Virus record (IMG/VR): IMGVR_UViG_3300032249_000988
Span: 1-41,222 of that record
DNA: 41,222 nucleotides
Strand: one strand, 5' to 3'
From: a virus
Positions 234 to 27,168 of the stretch are shown piece by piece (positions within the stretch are counted from its first letter, which is position 1; every line of letters begins with the position of its first letter). Below the pieces are notes generated by a model, which made no database searches, was not told the DNA's origin, and saw nothing but the letters and a program-made list of their open reading frames with translations. A program made the position numbers and the translations under genes.

Positions 234-3200
234 TTAGGTTCCAAAGGATCGAAGAGACAATTTTAACTCGTCCATCATTGCGGACTTAACGGCTTCTTTC
301 TCTTTTTTGGTTTTCGCCAACAGAAGATCTGCCGCGTGCTTTTGGATCACTGCGTTTACTGGGCCCCGAAGATGAACTTCTCGATTGAAATCCTTGACGG
401 ATTGCTCTGCCGAATCGGATCGCTTAGCGTTTTCGTCGATCGCCAGTACGTTCCCAGCCTCCGATACCCGATTGTATCGGCGTTTGTTGGCCACGGCTCG
501 GTAGTCGTCGGCTTCCTGCTGAAGCATGCGGTTTGCAAACGATTCAAGTTCTACCTCCTGATCGAACGTCGATTTTTCATCTTCAAATGCACCGAACAAA
601 TCGAAGCCCGTTTGCGTTGCCTTTCCAGCGTTGGCCATCTTGCGTGCAGCCGTCTCGATTTCTCGCGTACTCCAGTCCTTGCCTTCGGTCTCTCGATCAG
701 CAAGTTTCTTGAACAATAGATCCTGAAGTGCTGGATCCTTGAGGTGCTTTGCGACGGCCAACGCGGTCGTTTCATCCAACCTCCCTTCGGTCACCTTCTG
801 GAATGCCTTATCGTTTAGGGCAGTAAGCGTCACCGCATCGGACGCCAGTTTCCCGGACATGCTGATCCCGGCTTCTCGCAGGTGGTCAAGGGTTTGCCCC
901 GAGTCTCGAAGGTACTTTGCGGCGTCGATGGCCGATCCTCGGCCTTCCGCGATATTCGCTAATGCCCCTCGAGCGCGAGCTTCCTTGGCGTTTGGCGCGT
1001 CGATGTATCTCGCATTGATGTGATCGGCATTGAGTCTGCTTGCCAATTCATGGCGATGGTGTCCGTTGATCACGTAGTCCTGCCCGTCGGATGGATCACG
1101 CCAAACCAATAGCGATCCGGCCAGTTCCGGGTTCCACTTGGAAACTCCCTTGAGTTCTCCAGTCACGCCATCCTCCCCGATGTCTTTCACTTTGTACTGA
1201 AATCGCTTTGGGTCAACTTTCAATGAAGACGTTGGGACCGTGTAGATGTCGCGGTTGTTGACTTGTTTTGGGGTGCCGTTTTCGTGAAACTTACTTGCTT
1301 GGCTGTCCGTTTGGCTTACCTTGCCGTGCAGCCGATCGGCGATCTTGGCGACCAATTGCGGTTTCGCTCCGCCTGCGCGGATACCGTGCTCCTTCTGCAT
1401 CTCCCGTAGCTGCTTGACAGTCAAGATCGAAAGGTGCTCTGTAACCGTCTTCAGAGAGCTGGGAGACCTTTGGCCGTTGAGCGCCTCATTGATCTTTTCC
1501 TTTGCAGCAGATGCCGCCTCGGGGCTGTTCTTGGCGATGAAACGTCCATTCGGCCCTCTGGGGTGATCGATGGCTGTCCATGCCATACGCTTGATGCCAT
1601 AGATTTTGTCAAACATTGCTTCAGCGTCATCGCCGTAGAGCGACGTAAGGATTTCCGCGATCGCTTCTGCCTGTTCATCGCCATTCTCTGGACGCTCGAT
1701 GACTTCGACGTCTCTGTCGTCATGGGGGACGGATAAGCCCATCGCTGTGAAGACTTCAAGCAACGAGAACTTGATAGGATCGGCCTGTCCGTGGCGTTTT
1801 TGTCGGTATGCGGTCATAAGCCCCGCGAAGGCTTCGGCCATGGACTCGGCTTCCGCGTTGGTTGGCCATAGGGAAGCTTCGCCAGACTCATCGGAGAGGC
1901 TAGAAAGATAGGTGTTTTTTCGGCCCTTGGTTTCCAGTTGCTTCTTTACGTGAACTTCAAAGCTTCGTGCGAAGCACTCAATAGAGCTATTCCAATAATC
2001 TCTTTTACCCTCGGATAGCTTTCCGTCTCTGATCATTTTCGATACCACGCCCCGTACCCGCCTCATAAAGGGCTTGGCCGCTTCTTGCCAAGAGGCCATG
2101 GCCCCTCTGATTTCTGGGTCTGGCAGTTCTTTTACCGTAAACTCATCATCACCCCGAGTTCGGTAGGCTTCGGCGGTGGCCGCATTGACTCGAAGAGGAT
2201 AGCCCCGCGTCTTGTGGGTAACTTCGTGGGTATGGGAAACGTCGACGTCGGACATATATTTTCCGCCGTCGCGGCCAATGCCAAAGCCACCGAGCATGTG
2301 ATCGAAGGCGTGGCCCCATTCGTGGGCGAAGGTTCCAACTCCGCTATTGCGGGTCATGTTGATCACTTGGTTTCCCGGCTCGTAGTGCGCGGCTGCCGTA
2401 CCGTGTCCACGAGCCCCGACGGCAAGTCCTAGTTTCCCATCAAGTGAAATATCTTTTGGGTGGAGCCCTGTGACATCCGCAAGGTCCGCTATGGCCTCAA
2501 CCATTCGGGCTGCATGGTGTTTCCGCTCTGAGTCCGTGACTGAATTGCCCCACTGAAAGCCCCTCAAACCATATTCGTCTATCAAATGGTCGACAGCTTT
2601 GTTTGGGTCCGAAGTTATCGACGCAAGATCCCTCCCGCCCATTCTTTCAGCCTTTTGACCGTACAGGTTCTTAAGCTCAAAATCCTTCCTTTTGACCCCG
2701 GTCTTGCTTTCTTTCCCGAAGGTCGCATTGATTGACTTCCCTTCAATGACATCCTTTGCGTGTTCCGCAGCCTTTTCCAACATGATCCGCTTGGACTCCA
2801 TGCCTTGCGGAGTGTTATCGGCGTTGAAAGCGTTTGTCCACTCGTCTCCGTACTTGGTTTTTAGCTCACTGGCAAACTCGTTCAGCTTGCCGTACGTGGT
2901 CGTCTTACTCGCATAGCGGCTGACCTCAAGAGAGTTTGCCAAGCCGACTAGGTTGTTAGCAAGGTTGTCAAAGCGATTTGCTTTTCTCCGCTCGTTGACA
3001 ATCCCCATGACGTGGCTTTGGAGTCTACGAATGGACTTTATCGAGTCTTTATCGTCATGAGTGGAAGCAATCTCTTCGGCCTTCGCCTTTACGCTTTGAT
3101 ATGCTGCCACGTAGTCACTGCGAAGCTCGGGCGTGTTCTTCGTGTTCTTCCCGTAAACTGGGTTTGGCGGAAAACCTCGCATGGCAAAGTGCATGGCCAA

Positions 3201-5510
3201 GGACGTCAACGGGGCCCGGTCTGCATGTTCCATCAAATTGTGAGGTTCAAGCTTCAAGAGCATGTCGCGATTGACAAGCTTCTCGGCTGTTCCGTCGGTT
3301 TCAGCGGATGCTAGCCCTTTCCAAGCGTTGACCTTGTGGCGAGCTGAATTCTTGAGGTCTTCGCCACGGTTGCCTACTTCGCTGTCGCGAGCGAATTCGT
3401 ACTCCTTCTTGGTTTCTTCTTGTTGGTCCGCAGCCTTTGCGGCCTCGCGTGGATCCGCCCCAGATTCCTCGGCTTTCGAAAATGCTTCCGTTGCTGCCGC
3501 TGGGGTTCCGTCGGCGTTGAAGACCTGCGTCGATCCGTCTGGATAGACGAACGGTTTCTTTTCCTTTGCCTTCAGTTCACCGGCTTTGGCTTCCGAGCTT
3601 TTGTCTGCCAAAGCAGTGTCGCTCGAGGCCTGAGGTTCTTCCTTGGAAGTTTCGGTTCCGGCGTCATCCTTGGGAGTACGTCTCCCTCGGTCCAGGCGAT
3701 CTGCGATCTTGTCTACGAGAGATTGCTTCGTCTTTCCTGCTGCCGAAACACCGTATTCCTGTTTCAGGTCGCGAAGTTGCTTGCCGTTCAGCAACGACAA
3801 ATGCTCAACCAGTTTTTTTGCACTCTCAGGTGTCTTGTTCGACTGTAGCGATTCCTTGACTGCATCCTTGGCCGCTGATACTGCCTCTGCGCTGTACTTG
3901 GGAATGAATCTCCCGTTTGGTCCTCGCGGATGGTCGATGGCGTTCCATGAAGCCATTTTTTGGACCTGCGAACCAAACATTTCGTCGAAGTGAGATTCCG
4001 CATCGTCTCCGTAGATGTGTTCGAGGATTTCCGCGATGGCTTCAGCGCGTTCCAGGGCTTCTTCGTCCGAGTCTTCGCCCTCGTCGGATTCTTTCAGCGA
4101 TAGCCGCAAGACACCATTATCCAAAGCTCTCCGAGCTGCTTCTACGATTGACGAAGCGGAAAGAACACCACGGCCAACCGCATCAACGGGGTCTAGGGTT
4201 CCCATGCGCTGCAGCATGCCTTGGTCCGCTGGATTCATAATGCCTGACGGGTCGCCATGCATCGCTTGGCCTTGATCGGTGCCAGCTTGCTTTTGTCCCT
4301 GTTGCTCCATCGCCGATTGTGCGAGTGGTTTATGGGTGATTTCGTATTCGACGTCGGTCCCAAAATTCATTCGGGCGATCGGGTCTAAAGTGCGGCGAAT
4401 GTCGCAAAGGATTTGCACCACCCACGAATCGAGACCGCTGTAGAACGCTGCGAGTGGAAGCGATTTGCCCTCCCAGGATCCAGCGCCGTCGTTGGAAATG
4501 GCACCGTCTGGGATCTCCATGCCTTGGCGTATTTCCGCATCAAGGTCTTTTGGATACTTCAAAATGTGTTCGGGATTCGAAGCTACTGTTGCCTCTGCGA
4601 TAATCCACTTCTCGTTGCCTTGATCGTCGCGCGTCGACGGATAGGTGAGAGTTCCACCCGCTTGGCGTTGCTCTACGATTTGCAGAGCAATATCCCTTGC
4701 TGGTACCGGGGTATCGTTCCCTTCTACAAAAACAGATTCCTCCGGGTATCCCACTTTCATCCCGCCGTATGCATCTTTGTGCATGTACAGGCGTCGAGTA
4801 TCGAGCGCACCGCCGTTGAGCCACTTGTCACACCATGGCGAATAGGCTCCGAGCAAAATTGGACAACTGTATCGCTCCCCGTCTTCAGGTCGGAAGTTTA
4901 TGAAGTAGCAGTACGGAAAGGGGAGTTGCACGACGCCCATGTTCTTCACGTTGTCGATTTGAACACCCCATGGAGTACCCGCATGCTCCCATTCCATGAG
5001 GCGGCAATCCCTAGCGTGGCGATGCAACAATTGATCGATTTCAATGAGATTCGAATCAGATAGCCGCAACGTTACTTCCCCTGCTGCCCAGCCCCATACT
5101 TGCGATCGCATGATCCCTGGTAGGTAATTATTCCATATCGTTTGGAGTTGTCGTAATACCCATGCCGCAACCACTGGATTCTTAGCTTTCACTCCAGGGA
5201 TCCAAGTAGGCTTCCCATCCTCGCCGATTCCATCTTGATAAGCGAACTCGACTGATTGAAGCGGGGCAGCTCGCATCGCGAGGCACAAGCGAACCTGCGG
5301 ATCTCGCAGCATGACCCGAATAGTCTCAAAGGTGAAGAGTGGAAGATCGCGATGCTGATTGAAATAAACGTAGTGAGGACCGCGATAGTGCTGCGTGCGA
5401 GGGTTTCCGCGTGGATTCTCCTTTGTCGGTACAGTCATGGCTTTTTCCGCATCGCCCGTCGGACGATTTCCCACCCCAACGTACGTCTCGAATTCCCATG
5501 ATTGACTCAT
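234..5510 (-). CDS. Portal protein fused to polyvalent cargo (LPD1 metallopeptidase-like and ParB-like domains)
   Basis: A 1758-residue protein; the ATG at 5510 overlaps the upstream stop as ATGA, which decides the start. Residues 1 to about 480 look like a Mu gp29-type portal, the ring through which DNA enters and leaves the capsid. Residues about 490-600 hold a module of YGDDAE, DHPRGPNGRF and a SAP-like helical segment, and about 1290-1390 repeat it. Between them is a charged linker, then an LPD1-type domain with GLRGFQWGN, GARGHGTAAAHYEP and HEWGHAFDH (around 1062), a zinc-metallopeptidase-like motif. Residues about 1420-1560 resemble a ParB-like domain (INGHHRHE), followed by a helical C-terminus. 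Known portals are about 400-600 residues, so the extra 1250 are exceptional. Polyvalent proteins are known phage and conjugative cargo modules; that this cargo is packaged and injected is inference. Confidence 0.85.
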   Translation of the reverse strand: MSQSWEFETYVGVGNRPTGDAEKAMTVPTKENPRGNPRTQHYRGPHYVYFNQHRDLPLFTFETIRVMLRDPQVRLCLAMRAAPLQSVEFAYQDGIGEDGKPTWIPGVKAKNPVVAAWVLRQLQTIWNNYLPGIMRSQVWGWAAGEVTLRLSDSNLIEIDQLLHRHARDCRLMEWEHAGTPWGVQIDNVKNMGVVQLPFPYCYFINFRPEDGERYSCPILLGAYSPWCDKWLNGGALDTRRLYMHKDAYGGMKVGYPEESVFVEGNDTPVPARDIALQIVEQRQAGGTLTYPSTRDDQGNEKWIIAEATVASNPEHILKYPKDLDAEIRQGMEIPDGAISNDGAGSWEGKSLPLAAFYSGLDSWVVQILCDIRRTLDPIARMNFGTDVEYEITHKPLAQSAMEQQGQKQAGTDQGQAMHGDPSGIMNPADQGMLQRMGTLDPVDAVGRGVLSASSIVEAARRALDNGVLRLSLKESDEGEDSDEEALERAEAIAEILEHIYGDDAESHFDEMFGSQVQKMASWNAIDHPRGPNGRFIPKYSAEAVSAAKDAVKESLQSNKTPESAKKLVEHLSLLNGKQLRDLKQEYGVSAAGKTKQSLVDKIADRLDRGRRTPKDDAGTETSKEEPQASSDTALADKSSEAKAGELKAKEKKPFVYPDGSTQVFNADGTPAAATEAFSKAEESGADPREAAKAADQQEETKKEYEFARDSEVGNRGEDLKNSARHKVNAWKGLASAETDGTAEKLVNRDMLLKLEPHNLMEHADRAPLTSLAMHFAMRGFPPNPVYGKNTKNTPELRSDYVAAYQSVKAKAEEIASTHDDKDSIKSIRRLQSHVMGIVNERRKANRFDNLANNLVGLANSLEVSRYASKTTTYGKLNEFASELKTKYGDEWTNAFNADNTPQGMESKRIMLEKAAEHAKDVIEGKSINATFGKESKTGVKRKDFELKNLYGQKAERMGGRDLASITSDPNKAVDHLIDEYGLRGFQWGNSVTDSERKHHAARMVEAIADLADVTGLHPKDISLDGKLGLAVGARGHGTAAAHYEPGNQVINMTRNSGVGTFAHEWGHAFDHMLGGFGIGRDGGKYMSDVDVSHTHEVTHKTRGYPLRVNAATAEAYRTRGDDEFTVKELPDPEIRGAMASWQEAAKPFMRRVRGVVSKMIRDGKLSEGKRDYWNSSIECFARSFEVHVKKQLETKGRKNTYLSSLSDESGEASLWPTNAEAESMAEAFAGLMTAYRQKRHGQADPIKFSLLEVFTAMGLSVPHDDRDVEVIERPENGDEQAEAIAEILTSLYGDDAEAMFDKIYGIKRMAWTAIDHPRGPNGRFIAKNSPEAASAAKEKINEALNGQRSPSSLKTVTEHLSILTVKQLREMQKEHGIRAGGAKPQLVAKIADRLHGKVSQTDSQASKFHENGTPKQVNNRDIYTVPTSSLKVDPKRFQYKVKDIGEDGVTGELKGVSKWNPELAGSLLVWRDPSDGQDYVINGHHRHELASRLNADHINARYIDAPNAKEARARGALANIAEGRGSAIDAAKYLRDSGQTLDHLREAGISMSGKLASDAVTLTALNDKAFQKVTEGRLDETTALAVAKHLKDPALQDLLFKKLADRETEGKDWSTREIETAARKMANAGKATQTGFDLFGAFEDEKSTFDQEVELESFANRMLQQEADDYRAVANKRRYNRVSEAGNVLAIDENAKRSDSAEQSVKDFNREVHLRGPVNAVIQKHAADLLLAKTKKEKEAVKSAMMDELKLSLRSFGT

Positions 5511-6007
5511 GCTCGTTGCCCTCGTTTTGCTTGCGAATCGACGAAGCGTTTGAAGGCTTCGGTTTTTAGTTTCTGCGAGTACGCTTCGTCCCCGGTCGCC
5601 AAGAGTGCTAAGTGATACACACCCTCGTAATCGGTTGGAGAATAGTCGCCGGTCGCTAACCGTTGCTTTGCTCGGTTGCGCACGATGTTGCTTTCTAGAC
5701 CCAGCTTTGTCTCCTCGGATAGCTGCGTTGGGTCGATGTGATATGCCCAAGCAATTTCGGAGTCTATTTCCATTGCTTGCGAGTAAGCGTCGATCGCTTC
5801 GGTAATCAGTTGCCAGAACTGCCAAGCCGCCGTTGTATCGCACTTTAATCCTTTGCTTTCTAGCAGCTCTGCCACTTGCTTCAAGAATGGCATGGTAGGA
5901 CGCATGTTCGCATTCCGAACTGGCAAGTTGCTGGCAAACTTCGTGATCTTCCTTGCCATTTCAAGCATTGAAACTTCAATAGTTTGGGATTCGTATTCGA
6001 TGATCAC
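5507..6007 (-). CDS. Tail-chaperone-like protein, paralogue of the 9141..9473 gene
   Basis: A 166-residue protein, coupled by ATGA overlaps to the distal tail gene upstream and the portal fusion downstream. Residues 40-80 (FLKQVAELLESKGLKCDTTAAWQFWQLI) match in pattern the C-terminal half of the 9141..9473 protein (FLKEYASALDHLGI, then CTSDTAFRFYNLI). The two are probably paralogues. Residues 80-166 add a helical, charged extension that the smaller protein lacks. Position after the distal tail gene and before the portal suggests an assembly role such as a chaperone or scaffold, but no specific function can be read from the sequence. Confidence 0.8.
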   Translation of the reverse strand: MIIEYESQTIEVSMLEMARKITKFASNLPVRNANMRPTMPFLKQVAELLESKGLKCDTTAAWQFWQLITEAIDAYSQAMEIDSEIAWAYHIDPTQLSEETKLGLESNIVRNRAKQRLATGDYSPTDYEGVYHLALLATGDEAYSQKLKTEAFKRFVDSQAKRGQRA

Positions 6008-17416: not shown

Positions 17417-18910
17417 TCACGTTTTGATCACTCCTCCCCATGCCGCGCTCGATCGCTTCGAGACGTATGCAGCATAAGAGGTCACGTCAATGTCGTCGTT
17501 TGGTTCGTCCGGCTTGCCAGTCCATCCTAGAAGTACTCGCAAGTACGCCTTAAGCCAATCGGATTGCTCGAGGGGTACGAATATCTTTCCATGCTCCCAT
17601 CGAGCGAGCATCTTGGAAGCAACCGCACGTTCTAGCTTGGCCCCTTCCCAGTTGTCTCCCATGCCTGGGATGCACGGGCCCACAAGCTCCACCTTGCACG
17701 CGGTTACCTCTTTTGCGAGTACCGGCCCGAAGTGAGCATTCTCGACGTATGCCTTTGGCACCTCCCATGCTGCAAGCGTATCGTCTACGCCAGCTACCAG
17801 CCTGCTCCAATCCACTTGCCCACGCCAAACGTATCGCAGGAACAGCAGCTCCGAGAGAATCACCTTTCGGTCCCCAACCGGCATGACCAAATGGGGCAGG
17901 TGATCCCATACCGCGCAGATACTCCAAGATGGTTGCTTGCCACGCGTTACCGCTGCCTTTTCCTTAGATGTTCCAGCCGTGTCGATCGTGGCAAAGCGTT
18001 GGCACTTGGCGAAAGGGATCCTGTAGAAGTGATCCTGAAAAGTGATGTTGAACTCAGCTTGGTTGCAAACGTATCTACGCACCCAAGCTGAATCGATTTG
18101 TGTTCCTTCGGCGACATTCCAGTTGCCGTCTAATAGTCTGGCTCGCTCTATTTTGGATTGGGCTTTCAAACGCCCTTTGTAGCCCGGATCCCGTTCAAGG
18201 AGTTTGGGGTTGTCATCGAGCGTCGCCCGGATGAACGTGACCGACATGATGTCGTTTTCGTCGATGTCATCGAATTCCTCGATCAATTCTTGCTTCGAGT
18301 CGGACCAATGTAGGATCCCTTCGGAGTCTCGATAGAAGTATCGAAGCTTCCCAATGCGATCTTGAATCGCGTAGCCGTCCTCGCCAATCCACCAAGCGAG
18401 GAAGTCAGCGACCCAGCCTGGCTTTGGGTTGCAAGTGCAACGCACGTAGGGGCGGATTCCGCATGTAGTCCGCAATCGAGACAACATGTAGAAAAACATG
18501 GTTTCGGTAAAGTGCGTCAACTCGTCGAACCCGACAAAAGCGTACTGCAAGCCCTGATGCGAATACTTGTCCTTCTCATGCTGCAAGTGCGACAGCTTGA
18601 TCCGTGCACCCGATTCGAATTCCGCGTCGAGGTGTGGAATGTCTCGCAGACTAGCGCCAAGCGCTCGATAGCTCGGTTGGCATTCGTCCCACAAGCCGCC
18701 CTGCCCTGTCAGCTCCGGATAGGTCCGTCGAAAGATGATTGCCCGGAATCCTGGCAAGTCCACGTATCGCAATGGATCGTGAACGATAGTCCAAGATTTG
18801 CCACCCCCGGCGCTGCCGCCATAAATGACAATATCGGCTTCCGATTCAAAGCAATCGGTCTGCGGTCCTGGGTTCGGTTCTAGGATCGTGTCGAGGTTAC
18901 TCGCTACCAT
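17417..18910 (-). CDS. terL: Terminase large subunit
   Basis: A 497-residue DNA-packaging motor ATPase/nuclease. Walker A is GGSAGGGKS at residues 31-39, Walker B is FVGFDEL with D129-E130, and the C-terminal RNase H-like nuclease has RFATIDTAG (D310) and NDDIDVTSYA near 471-480. It pumps DNA into the prohead and cuts concatemers. The gene overlaps the small subunit by 14 bases. Length is normal for this family. The short distance from residue 480 to the C-terminus is typical. Confidence 0.95.
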   Translation of the reverse strand: MVASNLDTILEPNPGPQTDCFESEADIVIYGGSAGGGKSWTIVHDPLRYVDLPGFRAIIFRRTYPELTGQGGLWDECQPSYRALGASLRDIPHLDAEFESGARIKLSHLQHEKDKYSHQGLQYAFVGFDELTHFTETMFFYMLSRLRTTCGIRPYVRCTCNPKPGWVADFLAWWIGEDGYAIQDRIGKLRYFYRDSEGILHWSDSKQELIEEFDDIDENDIMSVTFIRATLDDNPKLLERDPGYKGRLKAQSKIERARLLDGNWNVAEGTQIDSAWVRRYVCNQAEFNITFQDHFYRIPFAKCQRFATIDTAGTSKEKAAVTRGKQPSWSICAVWDHLPHLVMPVGDRKVILSELLFLRYVWRGQVDWSRLVAGVDDTLAAWEVPKAYVENAHFGPVLAKEVTACKVELVGPCIPGMGDNWEGAKLERAVASKMLARWEHGKIFVPLEQSDWLKAYLRVLLGWTGKPDEPNDDIDVTSYAAYVSKRSSAAWGGVIKT

Positions 18911-21506: not shown

Positions 21507-24074
21507 CTATGCCTGAGCCTCCGTCCAGGACAATCGAGCTTGCACGGTTAACGATCCTCCCGTGTTATTTATCGCGACGAGAGTGACAACGTCAGGCCCG
21601 TCTGGGTAGAGATTTGCGGGTGTAGTTGGGACGGCTAGAACTGTGCCGCCTCCCAGGATGCTGTTTCCAAGGTCCCGAACTTTATCGAGGTCCTGTTGTG
21701 TGACGGCGTTCGTATTCGTGAAACATGAGAAAGCCGCTTCGCCCCCTGCGATGGTGGTTGCCGCAGTATGGAAGCAAATTTGGGAAAGCGATGACCCCCC
21801 GACCGCTTGGAAGTTGCCCGACGACACCCGACCATTGAGTATCAACGCAAGCCGCAAGGTGCCGCTTGCAATCGCATCAAGTTGGGCAAGCTTCAATTGC
21901 ATGCGGTTGATAATTTCACGAACGCCAAGCAATCCAGTTACGCCCGAATCGACACTCGGTCCCAATCGAATCGACATGAGTGCATTTGTCGCGCCTGCTG
22001 CGACTGTCAAAGCCGATGGCATGCCCTGGTTAAAGATTAAGCTTGAATCTGCATCGTAACGCCCGTCCATGATGACGGACGAACCCCAGTGCGAGATAGC
22101 TGGCGATGATTGCGACACCGCGTACTCGACCGCTATTTGGGACGTTGCGGAAAAATTAAAAGCGCTGGCGGTTTGTCCCCCCGTGACGCCTCTTGTGCAA
22201 CCCAAAAACGCGGTCGAAGACTTTCCCGTGTAACTAATCATTTCGATATTGCCGCTTGTCCCGTTGTCTGAAATGCGGATCGTGCCCGCAGATGGGAATG
22301 CCTCAGTACTCACCACGTTGATCGTCCCATCGGTAGCAGCAACGCTTGATGTCAAGGTTGTCAATGGGCCAATGGCCATACTGTCATACCGTGCTGGCAA
22401 GTTGCCCGACCGCATGTACGCTTCCGTGTTGACATTGTTGTTCTGAGCCTTATGAACGTACGTCTTGTTGCCGTTTTCCCCCCGAAACCCCCAACGAATG
22501 AACCCGGCTCCGTACCAAGAGTAGTCGATGTACAGCATCTGCATTTTGCCAATATTGATCGCGGTTTTGCTGATGCCGTTCCCGTCGAATCGATCGATGT
22601 TCCAATCGACTTGGGCAACCCGCGTATCGATCGTCCTAGATACGATAGTGTTGGACGATGTCACTCCGCGATACTCAGGTGCGATGACCAACGCGGTTTG
22701 CGATTGGATTTGGAGTACTCGATAGGACATGCCACGGATAACGATGTACCCTCCAACAGTCAATTGATCGTTAAATCTGGTATTGGTTCCGGTTACGGCC
22801 GAACTGCCGCTTGTAACCGCAACAACGCCCGATAGCTGCGCCGTTGAAGACCGTCGGACACAAAACAGGGTTTGCCCGTCGAACTCGAAGAACGCACCGT
22901 TCTGCGAATCGAACAAGCCGACACGGAACGTGTTTCCATACCAGCTTGTTGGGGTGACGTTAATCGGAAAGCCCGTGGCCGTTGATCGAGTCGGAACGCT
23001 TGCCGCGATGTAGGTGAACGTGGTATCGGAAGGAACGGACGCGACGGGGAATGTCCCGTTGTATGCCGCTTCATTCGCCGAATCGACGCGTACCGTGGCG
23101 TTGATCGTGAGCCCGTGTGGAAACCGTGTCGTGACGGTCACAGTGGTCCCCGAGCTTGTCAAAGAGTCAACCGAGAGCGCCGGCGTAAAAATGGTCCCCG
23201 TGCTGAACTCGATACCTTTGCCCGATTGATACCTGAAGTACCGACGGGTTTGTCGAACTAGCTGTGAATTAGGGGATCCCGATCCCGCCGAGAACGCAAC
23301 ACCGCCGTCGAATGCCCGGTGAATCGAGTAGCCCCCAGATCGCCCGTAAATTGTTGCATTTGCTCCGCCCGTTGCCGTGATTGCTCCGACGGGTGCTGTG
23401 ACGACAACAAACGTAAAACTGTTTGCCGTGGGGACACTGGCTACAACCCAGGAACCGTTTGGGGGATTTGATGTCGCCGCCGTGGTTCCGGTGACGTAGA
23501 TCAAGTCGCCGACGTGCAATCCATGCTGGGCGACCGTAGTGGCCGTTACGGTCGTTCCGCTGTTTGTGAACGCCGCTCCTGCCCCCGTTGCGACTTGGAT
23601 CGCTGCCCCCGAGTAGAAACTGCCTGCAAAGAGCAAAGTGCGGTTAGAGTCGAATTGCGAACCGTTTGCTACGTTGGCTTTTGCGGAATAGGTGAAGTTG
23701 GTTCCCGCCGAAACGGTTTCGACCAGATACCATCCGTTGGCATTCTGATCGTTTGCCCCTTGAATGAAAACTGGAGTTCCGACGCTCGGTGGAGTACTTG
23801 TGAGCACGGTCACAACCCGAGTCGAGCCCGTCCCAGATAGATTCGTGACGTTGATGACCGGAGCCGTGGGATCGTAAAAAGCTGACGGACGATTGTTCGT
23901 GAGCGGTAGCAGTTCCCACTTGGTGGGTTGCAATCCATACTCGAAATCCGTGTCGATAAGCGATTGTGGTTGCGATACCCGCTGACGGTTTACCGGATCT
24001 TGGAACTCCTCGATCGGTACGACTGCTTGTTCTGGCCCGCGTGATTTCAGATAGTAGTATGGTCGCATGGTCAT
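21507..24074 (-). CDS. Large structural protein with repeated beta modules
   Basis: An 855-residue protein. The N-terminus contains SLIDTDFEYGLQPTKWE, a segment seen in large structural proteins of marine and freshwater tailed phages. Three similar modules follow, each with a TTVTV/VVTV strand, a xHGLxxGD-type turn or equivalent, an NGxxxVxSV strand and a TxFTY strand (about 75-130, 170-230 and 300-360). These resemble FCCH-like beta repeats. The C-terminal half lacks repeats and has GNIEMISYTGKSSTAFLGCTRG, a common phage tail-fibre motif. It is likely a tail-tip or fibre protein; no enzymatic residues are recognised. An ATG six bases further in (24068) is an equally possible start. Confidence 0.7.
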   Translation of the reverse strand: MTMRPYYYLKSRGPEQAVVPIEEFQDPVNRQRVSQPQSLIDTDFEYGLQPTKWELLPLTNNRPSAFYDPTAPVINVTNLSGTGSTRVVTVLTSTPPSVGTPVFIQGANDQNANGWYLVETVSAGTNFTYSAKANVANGSQFDSNRTLLFAGSFYSGAAIQVATGAGAAFTNSGTTVTATTVAQHGLHVGDLIYVTGTTAATSNPPNGSWVVASVPTANSFTFVVVTAPVGAITATGGANATIYGRSGGYSIHRAFDGGVAFSAGSGSPNSQLVRQTRRYFRYQSGKGIEFSTGTIFTPALSVDSLTSSGTTVTVTTRFPHGLTINATVRVDSANEAAYNGTFPVASVPSDTTFTYIAASVPTRSTATGFPINVTPTSWYGNTFRVGLFDSQNGAFFEFDGQTLFCVRRSSTAQLSGVVAVTSGSSAVTGTNTRFNDQLTVGGYIVIRGMSYRVLQIQSQTALVIAPEYRGVTSSNTIVSRTIDTRVAQVDWNIDRFDGNGISKTAINIGKMQMLYIDYSWYGAGFIRWGFRGENGNKTYVHKAQNNNVNTEAYMRSGNLPARYDSMAIGPLTTLTSSVAATDGTINVVSTEAFPSAGTIRISDNGTSGNIEMISYTGKSSTAFLGCTRGVTGGQTASAFNFSATSQIAVEYAVSQSSPAISHWGSSVIMDGRYDADSSLIFNQGMPSALTVAAGATNALMSIRLGPSVDSGVTGLLGVREIINRMQLKLAQLDAIASGTLRLALILNGRVSSGNFQAVGGSSLSQICFHTAATTIAGGEAAFSCFTNTNAVTQQDLDKVRDLGNSILGGGTVLAVPTTPANLYPDGPDVVTLVAINNTGGSLTVQARLSWTEAQA

Positions 24075-24079
24075 CCCAG

Positions 24080-24382
24080 TTAATTTGAAAGCTCGTTAAC
24101 CGACGGTTCAACAGACTTGTCCGATGGCCAACCGACAACCGACTCTCGAGCCAGCACACCAGTCAAATGCGATGGATCAACAACGCCATTAGCAATCCAA
24201 TGGTCAAACATCGCTTTGCAATGCAAAACGGCTTCCTCGTTATCCTCGAAGTCAGCTAAGGCAACACGAACGGAATTCGTGAATTGGCTTCGATCCCGTC
24301 CTCCTGCGCATTCAAAGGCTTGGCAAGCGATGCGATGGCGGTCAACGTCGGTAGCAGAATGTAGCATATCGCGCGAGTCCAT
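24080..24382 (-). CDS. Small acidic protein of unknown function
   Basis: A 100-residue protein, charged and helical (FTNSVRVALADFEDNEEAVLHCKAMFDHWI), that ends five bases before the structural protein gene. No Shine-Dalgarno sequence is clear before the ATG at 24382; an internal ATG six codons on is possible. No domain is recognised. Its place upstream of the large tail protein suggests an accessory or chaperone role, but this is only positional. Confidence 0.5.
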   Translation of the reverse strand: MDSRDMLHSATDVDRHRIACQAFECAGGRDRSQFTNSVRVALADFEDNEEAVLHCKAMFDHWIANGVVDPSHLTGVLARESVVGWPSDKSVEPSVNELSN

Positions 24383-24532: not shown

Positions 24533-25072
24533 CTACGTTTGGTGATTTGCTCTCGGCGGAATCCAAAAACAGGCAAGTACAAAAATCTCGAGCACCCTCC
24601 AGAAGTAGATTGCATCAAGCACTGGATTGAGAATCGGAGTCATCACGCAATACCGAACATGAAACGGATTCCTATGATGCTCCGAGTGATGTTTTGGGCT
24701 CTGGAAAATGTACAGACGCTGCATCATCACAACCAACCATCCGTTCCGACTTTTTCTGTGCGCGAGGGCGTGAATTTGGTTTGCCTGTGACAAAAAAAGC
24801 ATAGTCAGCCATCCGTCGCGCAATGGCTCGAAAGCCAAGCAGAATAGCATTGCAGCAAGGCTCGGGACAATCGTTGTGTAGTTTCGCTCCCAGTACGATC
24901 CCTTAAGAAACGCATATTGATTAGCATGATGCAACTGGTTCGGCCCACCAATCAGCCGACCGATAAACGAGTCGCTTTGGGTGAGGTAGGTATCCTCCCA
25001 CCAGTGAAAAAAGCCTGCGATGAAATCTGCAGCCAGCCACGACAGGCAAATAAAAACAAACCAGTTAGTCAT
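24533..25072 (-). CDS. CarF/TMEM189-like lipid desaturase (plasmanylethanolamine desaturase family)
   Basis: A 179-residue membrane protein with the His-rich pattern of the TMEM189/CarF (lipid desaturase) family. It shows FFHWWEDTY (H23, D27), PNQLHHAN (H48, H49), NQIHALAHRKSRN (H101, H105) and SPKHHSEHHRNPFHVRYCV (H128-H138), then LDAIYFWRVLE (D153). In known members these histidines bind a di-metal centre that introduces the vinyl-ether bond of plasmalogens. Hydrophobic segments lie at about 1-20, 65-100 and 155-172. The length is close to bacterial CarF-type core domains. It is first in the accessory cassette. The host substrate is unknown, and a phage-borne member is unexpected. Confidence 0.85.
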   Translation of the reverse strand: MTNWFVFICLSWLAADFIAGFFHWWEDTYLTQSDSFIGRLIGGPNQLHHANQYAFLKGSYWERNYTTIVPSLAAMLFCLAFEPLRDGWLTMLFLSQANQIHALAHRKSRNGWLVVMMQRLYIFQSPKHHSEHHRNPFHVRYCVMTPILNPVLDAIYFWRVLEIFVLACFWIPPRANHQT

Positions 25073-25098: not shown

Positions 25099-25437
25099 TT
25101 AGCCGTTTGGTTTTTCTGAATGATTCGCGTGGCCGTGGCCAAACAGTTGCTTAGGGCATTGCTGGGTATTGGCCTTGATCGAAGCAACGTCTCTGCGGGT
25201 TTCCGACAGCTCCTCGCAAACGCGATCCATTGTCTGCCCGAGTTTTTGCTGCGTAATGTTTGATTTTTCAAGGTTTTCCGTTTGCCCTTGAAAGTAAGCT
25301 ATCGCTGCGTCTTTCATCGGGACCAGAACTAACTGCATAAAGGCTTTCCCGCCCCTGTGAGCCCCGAGAAAGATTGCGCCAATGATTGCCACAGCGAGGC
25401 CGTTGTTGAATAGCCACTTGACTGTTTCTTCCGTCAT
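25099..25437 (-). CDS. Small membrane protein with coiled coil
   Basis: A 112-residue protein with one N-terminal transmembrane segment (LAVAIIGAIFLGA), then a basic stretch, then a helical coiled-coil-like segment (QTENLEKSNITQQKLGQTMDRVCEELSETRRDVASIK, about 55-90) and a His-rich tail. This build resembles small phage membrane proteins of lysis regions such as XhlA-type or holin-associated proteins. No specific family can be named. ATGA overlap couples it to the thioredoxin-like gene. Confidence 0.6.
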   Translation of the reverse strand: MTEETVKWLFNNGLAVAIIGAIFLGAHRGGKAFMQLVLVPMKDAAIAYFQGQTENLEKSNITQQKLGQTMDRVCEELSETRRDVASIKANTQQCPKQLFGHGHANHSEKPNG

Positions 25438-25892
25438 CGCCTCAACTCGCTTTCTAGTCGCTCAACGCTCATGTAGCCAGAAACTTCAAACGTCTTTGTG
25501 CCGTCAATGACAATGAAATGCGGCAGCCGAGAAACGGTTTTCTCATCTCCATATGCGAAGCTGTACCCCATCTTTCGAAACTTTTCTTGCTCGAATTGTT
25601 TCCATCGCTTGCATGGGTCGCACCAGTCCGCAGAAAAGACGATGATCTCTTTCTTGGCGGGCTCCGCCTTTGGCGTGTGGTCCGATACCGGCCTGTCAGG
25701 GTGATAGGGTTCCTTTTCGTCGAGGAAAAAATCCTTCAGCTTCTCGGTTGCTCCGTCCGTTTTTGCGTCAAGTTCTGCTTGCGTCTCTTGGTACGACTGC
25801 CAAAGCTCAACCGCCCTTGGTCCGCACAAAAGCAATGCAGTTCCAACCACAAGCATGGCTATTGTCTTGATGTCCGGTTTTTTGCTTTCCAT
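25434..25892 (-). CDS. Membrane-anchored thioredoxin-like protein
   Basis: A 152-residue protein with an N-terminal membrane anchor (residues about 9-25, IKTIAMLVVGTALLLCG) and a thioredoxin fold in the C-terminal half. The active site is SADWCDPCKRW (C91-x-x-C94), and the cis-proline region is RLPHFIVIDG (P124). This predicts a disulfide-exchange enzyme facing the periplasm or the outer side of the cytoplasmic membrane. It has an ATGA overlap with the next gene and a GAGG ribosome site upstream. Phage-encoded thioredoxins are known, but membrane-anchored versions in an accessory cassette are less usual. The substrate is not evident. Confidence 0.8.
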   Translation of the reverse strand: MESKKPDIKTIAMLVVGTALLLCGPRAVELWQSYQETQAELDAKTDGATEKLKDFFLDEKEPYHPDRPVSDHTPKAEPAKKEIIVFSADWCDPCKRWKQFEQEKFRKMGYSFAYGDEKTVSRLPHFIVIDGTKTFEVSGYMSVERLESELRR

Positions 25893-25909: not shown

Positions 25910-26737
25910 TTAAGCTGCGTTGGAGGTAATAGCGCGAGGAGCGACTGCATTGGTTGGCAAGGCTTTGTCTCCTCGCAGCACGGCCGTACCGTTCTCGCCC
26001 CAGTTCTTCCAGGAGTTCAAGATGCGAACTCCAAAAGATCCTGGTTCAACTTCCTCCAGGTCCATCGAGCAAACCGAGTGCCCCCACCAGAAGAAGTCGG
26101 TTGCGACGGGAATTCGATTGAGCAAGCAGGTAGCAAACTGGTCGAAGGTCATCTTGCGATCGTAGACCGGCGAAGACAACTCGACCCATCCTGAAGTGAT
26201 TTTGTGTTTTGCTGCGTTCTGCCAGGTCGCCTCAGTGTCATTTGATCGAGACATGGATTTCTCTTTCCAGAACTCGACGGATGGAACGCCGTTCTTCGCG
26301 ACGTACTCCATACTGAGCGCCGCCCAGCCGCCCTGATCTGCGTAATTCTTTACTTTGCACCCAACAGCATGGGCGGACAGTCGCACGTAAGGCAGGCCCA
26401 TCGAGGCTCGCCAAAGCATGATGGAATGAACCGTTGAATAGACCCAGCAATACCCTTGACCGTTTTGGTCGAGATTTTCAAACGGCTTGCCCTTATCGGC
26501 AATGTTTCTCAAATCGCTAATGCGGGACTTGGTACGCTTCATTTCCTTGATGCGATCCGACCACTCCGATCGCGGAATGATTTGCAGTTGATTCAGGTCC
26601 CACTCGGGGGCCCCATAGGAGCCAACCGGATACTGCTTGGGATCGCGGTATACAAGACCAAAGGTGTTGCCTTGGGTTTCCTTTCCGCCCTGGATGAAGT
26701 CTCGATAGTTGTCGTCATCAATGATGAACTCTGCCAT
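25910..26737 (-). CDS. Papain-like cysteine peptidase (C1)
   Basis: A 275-residue protein; the ATG at 26737 is chosen because GGAGG lies seven bases upstream and it avoids a 106-base overlap with the upstream gene. Papain-type catalytic signatures are in order: Q91 (oxyanion) in DQNGQGYCWVY with C97, GGWAALSMEYVAKNG, H220 in WWGHSVC, and N241-S-W in ILNSWKNWGENG. The first 80 residues resemble a propeptide or N-terminal extension. No signal peptide or membrane segment is seen. It could act on host proteins, on virion proteins, or in lysis; no canonical endolysin is evident elsewhere in the window. Confidence 0.85.
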   Translation of the reverse strand: MAEFIIDDDNYRDFIQGGKETQGNTFGLVYRDPKQYPVGSYGAPEWDLNQLQIIPRSEWSDRIKEMKRTKSRISDLRNIADKGKPFENLDQNGQGYCWVYSTVHSIMLWRASMGLPYVRLSAHAVGCKVKNYADQGGWAALSMEYVAKNGVPSVEFWKEKSMSRSNDTEATWQNAAKHKITSGWVELSSPVYDRKMTFDQFATCLLNRIPVATDFFWWGHSVCSMDLEEVEPGSFGVRILNSWKNWGENGTAVLRGDKALPTNAVAPRAITSNAA

Positions 26738-26739
26738 CG

Positions 26740-27168
26740 TTATCCTCCGGTGTGTTTCTTCAAGAGCGACAGTGTTTTTTCGATAGTTTTTGGCATCTTG
26801 CCCTCGTATCCGCCCTTGGTTTTGCCAGAAGAAATCATCAGCCAAGGATTGTCTTTTCTGGGGCGTTCAAAGGCTTCTCTCCAATACGCTTCGTCTTGAG
26901 ACATATCTGCCTTGTTCGAGACGATTCGATAATCCTTAGCAGCCTCGCCAAGATACTTGCGGATGTCGCTGGAGAAAATCACCGACTTCTCAGACTCGGG
27001 CATCAAGGACAGCTTCGAGTCGTCGTAAACAAGCATCACGCGAAATCCTTCCGCGTTGATAGGGCGAACTCCTGGCGACAGGAAGTCGAAGTTCAGCGAC
27101 TCGCCTCCCCCAAGAAAGAGAAGTAAGCCGCCAATCAACATCAATATTGCTGGCGCTTTTGACTTCAT
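26740..27168 (-). CDS. Membrane-anchored protein with degenerate thioredoxin-like fold
   Basis: A 142-residue protein with an N-terminal anchor (PAILMLIGGLLLFLGGG), then a domain FRVMLVYDDSK ... NPWLMISSGKTKGGYEGKMP ... LSLLKKH. The strand-turn order and the Pro before a hydrophobic strand resemble the C-terminal half of thioredoxins, as in the neighbouring 25434 protein, but there is no CxxC. GGAG lies eight bases upstream of the ATG. It is likely exported and membrane-bound. The fold call is tentative. Confidence 0.55.
   Translation of the reverse strand: MKSKAPAILMLIGGLLLFLGGGESLNFDFLSPGVRPINAEGFRVMLVYDDSKLSLMPESEKSVIFSSDIRKYLGEAAKDYRIVSNKADMSQDEAYWREAFERPRKDNPWLMISSGKTKGGYEGKMPKTIEKTLSLLKKHTGG

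Follow-up and report, generated by a model that had tools for sequence, protein, structure and literature searches.

Phages carry an N-type branch of the PF10520 lipid desaturase family

Lipid desaturases of the family PF10520, to which CarF, TMEM189/PEDS1 and plant FAD4 all belong, are di-iron enzymes that use O2 and an input of electrons to act on membrane lipid chains. Peroxiredoxin Q is a thioredoxin-fold protein, and the desaturases of cyanophages and other phages are members of the classical fatty-acid desaturase superfamily (PF00487) rather than of PF10520. In mouse PEDS1, activity needs eight histidines and one aspartate (H96, D100, H121, H122, H187, H191, H215, H218 and H219), and the mutants F118A and H131A show about 6 and 7% activity, respectively (PMC8960569). 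PEDS1 H131 corresponds to H113 of CarF, which is needed for activity (PMC8960569, PMC9131029), and F118 is conserved in both FAD4 and PEDS1 according to a published alignment (PMC8960569). FAD4 is enhanced by peroxiredoxin Q, which was required for reconstitution in yeast (PMC12456178). Phage fatty-acid/acyl-CoA desaturases are known in cyanophages (Roitman et al., 2018, as cited in PMC11480375), and Baikal Nitrospirota phages encode desaturases that are also found with phage redox proteins (PMC7678222). No literature on PF10520 in phage was found among open-licence papers.

The window, meaning the whole stretch of DNA that was analysed, is a viral record 41,222 bases long. An earlier note, made from its letters, had placed a CarF/TMEM189-like desaturase making plasmalogens at 24533-25072. 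These coordinates proved exact, enclosing a single reading frame of 179 amino acids on the minus strand (25072..24533), and the plus strand across the same interval is broken by stop codons. An AAGGA element lies about 13 nt upstream of the ATG, and comparison with close relatives gave a dN/dS of 0.03-0.17, the differences being mostly silent. The product matched Pfam PF10520 (Lipid_desat) with an E-value of 2.7e-34 and 119.1 bits against a curated cut-off of 26.4, and gave a sub-threshold match to PF04116 (FA_hydroxylase; E 5e-4, 20.9 bits, curated cut-off 31); a PHROGs search of the reading frame matched no family. The ORF is a genuine gene, and its product is a membrane enzyme belonging to the lipid desaturases. 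The histidine motifs listed in the earlier note are present, namely HWWED (H23-D27), HH (48-49), NQIHALAH (H101, H105), KHHSEHH (H128/H129, H132/H133) and NPFH (H138). Residues H23, D27, H48, H49, H101, H105, H129, H132 and H133 are the counterparts, in that order, of the nine PEDS1 residues listed above. The constellation H-x3-D-x20-HH...H-x3-H...H-xx-HH occurred in none of 200,000 protein shuffles and once in the six-frame translation of the window, and is not a product of chance.

An alignment, which the earlier note had proposed as a check on itself, recovered the conserved histidine set, all eight together with D100, at the spacing of PEDS1 (in PEDS1 numbering, H96-D100 4, H96-H121 25, H187-H191 4, H191-H215 24 and H215-H218 3). 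Since distances inside both blocks are the same as in PEDS1, the residue correspondences are unambiguous: N45 of the phage protein replaces F118, and G58 replaces H131. Of 151 unique homologues, 150 or all 151 kept each of the eight histidines and the D100 position; the exceptions were one Asn and two truncated sequences. The Asn belongs to a phage copy (L009, 6001-6537) in which H129 is replaced, so that its third box reads KHNAVHH; this copy is possibly inactive. At the F118 position, by contrast with the ligands, the homologues divide into those with N (100 of 151, here N-type) and those with F (48, F-type), and one member of the phage clade (L136) has Ala. His stands at the H131 place in 39 of the 48 F-type sequences and in 3 of the 100 N-type sequences, all three of them close phage relatives (L037-L039).

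A maximum-likelihood tree of 85 representatives from this alignment, which included no animal or plant sequences, divided the N-type and F-type sequences cleanly (UFBoot 95). The comparison with bacterial CarF homologues from which a donor had been expected set the N-type apart from the myxobacterial CarF-like proteins. N-type phage and prophage copies, with one Pirellulaceae gene (L125), formed a clade of 32 tips (UFBoot 100), outside which the Planctomycetota and alphaproteobacterial chromosomal genes fell. In addition, the window's protein scored 67.9 bits against the NCBIfam CarF equivalog NF045946, whose cut-off is 500; F-type core fragments, which are not full length, also fell below it at 192 and 230. 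The CarF/TMEM189 assignment held for the PF10520 superfamily, the membrane build and the phage location and was not supported for plasmalogen synthesis, which was rejected as the default function on the F118 and H131 positions together with the tree. All phage copies fall in the N-type clade save one in the 595-kb uncultured phage LR756511. That copy (LR756511.1; L044:5001-5456) is F-type with the eight histidines, D100, F118 and H131 all present, and its sequence would make it a far stronger candidate than the window's gene for a plasmalogen desaturase encoded by a phage; an exact-peptide search of IMG/VR found no relatives of it. The best explanation of these results is that the N-type is a distinct branch of PF10520 long carried by phages.

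The AlphaFold2 model of the desaturase, built with 53 homologues, had a pLDDT of 94.3 and a pTM of 0.89. The nearest solved structure was the di-metal hydroxylase Scs7p, a middling match (VIA Z 6.9 over 145 residues; Foldseek E 0.8). Foldseek gave no match to the PDB at E 0.001 or better, which does not imply a new fold, and the PDB held no relative by sequence or by profile. In the Foldseek viral library the model matched the lipid desaturase of the giant virus Harvfovirus (A0A3G5A308) with a probability of 1.00 and a TM score of 0.67.

The genetic context of the desaturase is that of a phage, the surrounding genes of the record including terminase, portal and structural ones. Downstream lie a 100-aa ORF matching nothing (24080..24382, minus strand) and an 855-aa virion structural protein (21507..24074, minus strand; phrog_5838, E 7e-247), which puts the desaturase among the structural genes; the terminase large subunit is at 17417..18910 (minus strand; phrog_979, E 6e-98). 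Virion genes flank the desaturase and it recurs in independent viral contigs, which argues for a phage gene rather than host contamination. At 234-5843 (minus strand) the window also holds an unusual large fusion, a 1869-aa ORF with a portal-protein match in its C-terminal part only and other matches mid-protein. Upstream of the desaturase is a 112-aa protein (25099..25437, minus strand) whose single transmembrane segment is N-terminal and whose tail is charged and coiled-coil-like, a build resembling that of a holin or spanin; small membrane proteins related to it, or built like it, precede the desaturase in several relatives. Next comes a membrane-anchored 152-aa protein of the thioredoxin fold (25434..25892, minus strand), whose 3′ end is overlapped by 4 nt by the start of the following gene. 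Pfam Thioredoxin_2 matched it slightly below cut-off (E 1.8e-5), an alignment showed invariant C91 and C94 (CxxC), W97 and P124, and its AlphaFold2 domain model was mostly above pLDDT 90 with thioredoxins as top Foldseek matches. Of 60 loci examined, 27 had a member of this family no more than two genes away from the desaturase, all of them in the window's sub-clade; the family was not found beside the desaturase in sister phage clades, nor in the phage branch of L062. The charges leave the membrane orientation of the protein ambiguous, and its domain could face the periplasm. Further upstream, a 311-aa ORF (25910..26845, minus strand) has weak similarity to papain-like cysteine peptidases (PF00112, E 0.0086, below cut-off), and the papain-like protein of another phage scores over the cut-off. 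Elsewhere in the clade the desaturase is preceded by a papain-like or subtilisin-like ORF. A subtilisin-like protease ORF was recognised by eye four genes upstream of the desaturase in L062 (7480-8409), and sister phage clades carry upstream a trypsin-like protein whose membrane helix is C-terminal, as in L090.

To see how widely the gene is spread, IMG/VR was searched in several ways. There were 41 close relatives; a wider query gave 115, of which 80 were kept; and a DNA pattern for the histidine spacing gave 21 + 81 contigs, a few of them lacking a desaturase and the set overlapping the others. In all, about 100 viral contigs encode relatives, and homologues are 24-96% identical to the window's protein. 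Of 50,697 deposited phages only two carry a relative: LR756511 (28% identity) and Erythrobacter phage vB_EliS-L02 (37%), in which the gene lies between phoH and portal and is annotated as a hypothetical protein. The earlier remark that such an enzyme is unexpected in a phage was half right: the N-type proved frequent among uncultured phages, and phages were already known to encode fatty-acid desaturases from a different superfamily. Applied to 84,980 genomes, the histidine-spacing pattern gave 14 stretches. Four are prophages of Sphingomonadales, of which three match IMG/VR proviruses letter for letter (L145, L154 and L171 versus L117, L115 and L118), and a named strain, Novosphingobium naphthalenivorans NBRC 102051, with the N-type gene in a prophage, is among these letter-identical contigs. 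Others are N-type phage-like contigs binned in independent Pirellula and Planctomycetota MAGs (L114, L116, L121, L126 and L123), two Pirellula bins each containing two such contigs, which hints at planctomycete hosts for the sister phage clade. The rest comprise CarF-like genes from two MAGs, one of Myxococcales and one labelled Klebsiella, together with one Pirellulaceae gene, one Planctomycetota gene, and a haloarchaeal stretch (L120) that was set aside as a chance match to the pattern. The Pirellulaceae contig, with sulfatase-like and M56-like reading frames recognised by eye, has the desaturase alone in common with the viral loci. Chromosomal N-type genes neighbour CTP synthase, EVE-domain and regulator genes, neighbourhoods that gave no functional lead. 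Matches to PF10520 above the cut-off occurred in 5 of 385 alphaproteobacterial genomes, in 76 of 282 from the phylum to which a Myxococcales MAG belongs and in 30 of 294 from that of a Planctomycetota MAG. A donor search with peptide patterns in genomes found no relative, and a search of plasmids found none. The window's terminase does not decide the host, since its best relatives share 47-48% identity and come from one of 392 Planctomycetota genomes as well as from two of 220 alphaproteobacterial ones.

Given these data, we consider it probable that the gene encodes a membrane-embedded, histidine-ligated di-metal desaturase of the N-type that alters host phospholipid chains. The metal site would be di-iron by homology. 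Judging from its place in the gene order, the enzyme would be made together with the structural and other late genes and would insert into the host inner membrane, where it would consume O2 and electrons, the latter perhaps supplied by the neighbouring membrane-anchored thioredoxin-fold protein, and introduce a double bond (or a hydroxyl) into these chains, so adjusting the membrane towards the end of infection. Any benefit to the phage may come through membrane fluidity, lysis timing or exclusion. Both marker residues of the ether-lipid desaturases are gone, and alphaproteobacterial homologues without CarF H113 failed to complement carF (PMC9131029); on these grounds acyl chains, as for plant FAD4, are the most likely substrate, ahead of plasmalogen synthesis. 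A true plasmanylethanolamine desaturase, forming vinyl-ether lipids from host ether lipids, is accordingly quite unlikely in our view. It would be in keeping with the shared superfamily and the complete set of eight histidines and D100, with the residual activities of the PEDS1 F118A and H131A mutants, according to which a single loss is not fully disabling, and with the His at the H131 place in L037-L039; against it stand the absence of H131 from 97 of the 100 N-type sequences, the clean separation from the CarF-like F-type, the low equivalog score and the failed complementation. The dependence of FAD4 on peroxiredoxin Q makes a role of the thioredoxin-like protein as redox partner reasonable but unproven. 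Several findings weigh against our preferred reading: N45 gives the N-type no closer link to FAD4, as FAD4 keeps F118; sister phage clades showed no thioredoxin-like gene next to the desaturase; the CarF histidines are cytoplasmic, whereas the thioredoxin-like domain could be periplasmic; and one phage copy (L009) lacks a ligand. To our knowledge, no N-type protein has a demonstrated activity.

The same fold might instead serve a lipid hydroxylase or another di-iron oxidase with no desaturase activity, which we regard as unlikely. Scs7p, the best solved match, is a sphingolipid alpha-hydroxylase, the PF04116 match points the same way, and an F to N exchange adjoining the metal site could alter the chemistry; yet the PF04116 score is far below that of PF10520, the structural match is middling, and we know of no PF10520 member that acts as a hydroxylase. 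Somewhat more room must be given to the idea that the desaturase is a component of a lysis or envelope module, in which the lipid change would serve lysis or a block to superinfection together with the peptidase, the thioredoxin-like protein and the small membrane proteins, rather than metabolism. Its neighbours are by their build exported or membrane proteins and the upstream peptidase recurs in three different folds, but the scans identified no recognised lysis gene, and the neighbours differ among phage clades, the desaturase lying by head-tail genes in L090. This idea, a tentative one, overlaps our preferred reading, which leaves the benefit open. A non-functional passenger gene is very improbable: one of about 100 copies lacks a metal ligand, whereas the dN/dS indicates strong purifying selection and the ligands are near-universal among homologues however divergent. 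More speculatively, the N-type may form a separate enzyme class in which the active-site Phe-to-Asn exchange leads to a new lipid product, made with a dedicated, membrane-anchored thioredoxin electron donor as the host membrane is rebuilt in infection; we hold this to be possible, if rather doubtful.

Viral remodelling of bacterial membrane lipids is poorly charted, and here a conserved, selected clade of phage enzymes has no PHROG match. A phage-wide N-type PF10520 clade is not described in the open-licence papers searched, while phage desaturases and giant-virus PF10520-like proteins were already known. The culturable carrier vB_EliS-L02, which grows on Erythrobacter litoralis DSM 8509, makes the function directly testable. 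For annotation, the histidine set in PF10520 does not by itself mean plasmalogens, and F118/H131 provide a simple sorting rule for proteins of this family.

In comparison with known systems, the phage protein shares with CarF/TMEM189 (PEDS1) the PF10520 family, the eight histidines and D100, equal spacing within blocks and the membrane build, but it lacks F118 (N45) and H131 (G58), has 179 residues against about 270 and lies on the separate N-type branch. With plant FAD4, a trans-delta3 phosphatidylglycerol acyl desaturase, it has in common PF10520, the eight histidines and the lack of H131. FAD4 works with peroxiredoxin Q, and the phage gene has a thioredoxin-fold candidate partner nearby (in the 27 loci); FAD4 differs in retaining F118 and in being a plastid enzyme. 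The cyanophage and Baikal phage desaturases are likewise phage-encoded membrane desaturases and follow the same auxiliary metabolic gene logic. Scs7p, a fatty-acid 2-hydroxylase (PDB 4zr0/4zr1), offers the nearest solved fold and a di-metal histidine site, but at 12% identity and Z 6.9, and it hydroxylates sphingolipid acyl chains. Finally, Harvfovirus A0A3G5A308 has a viral PF10520-like fold as well, in a giant virus of eukaryotes and at 23% identity.
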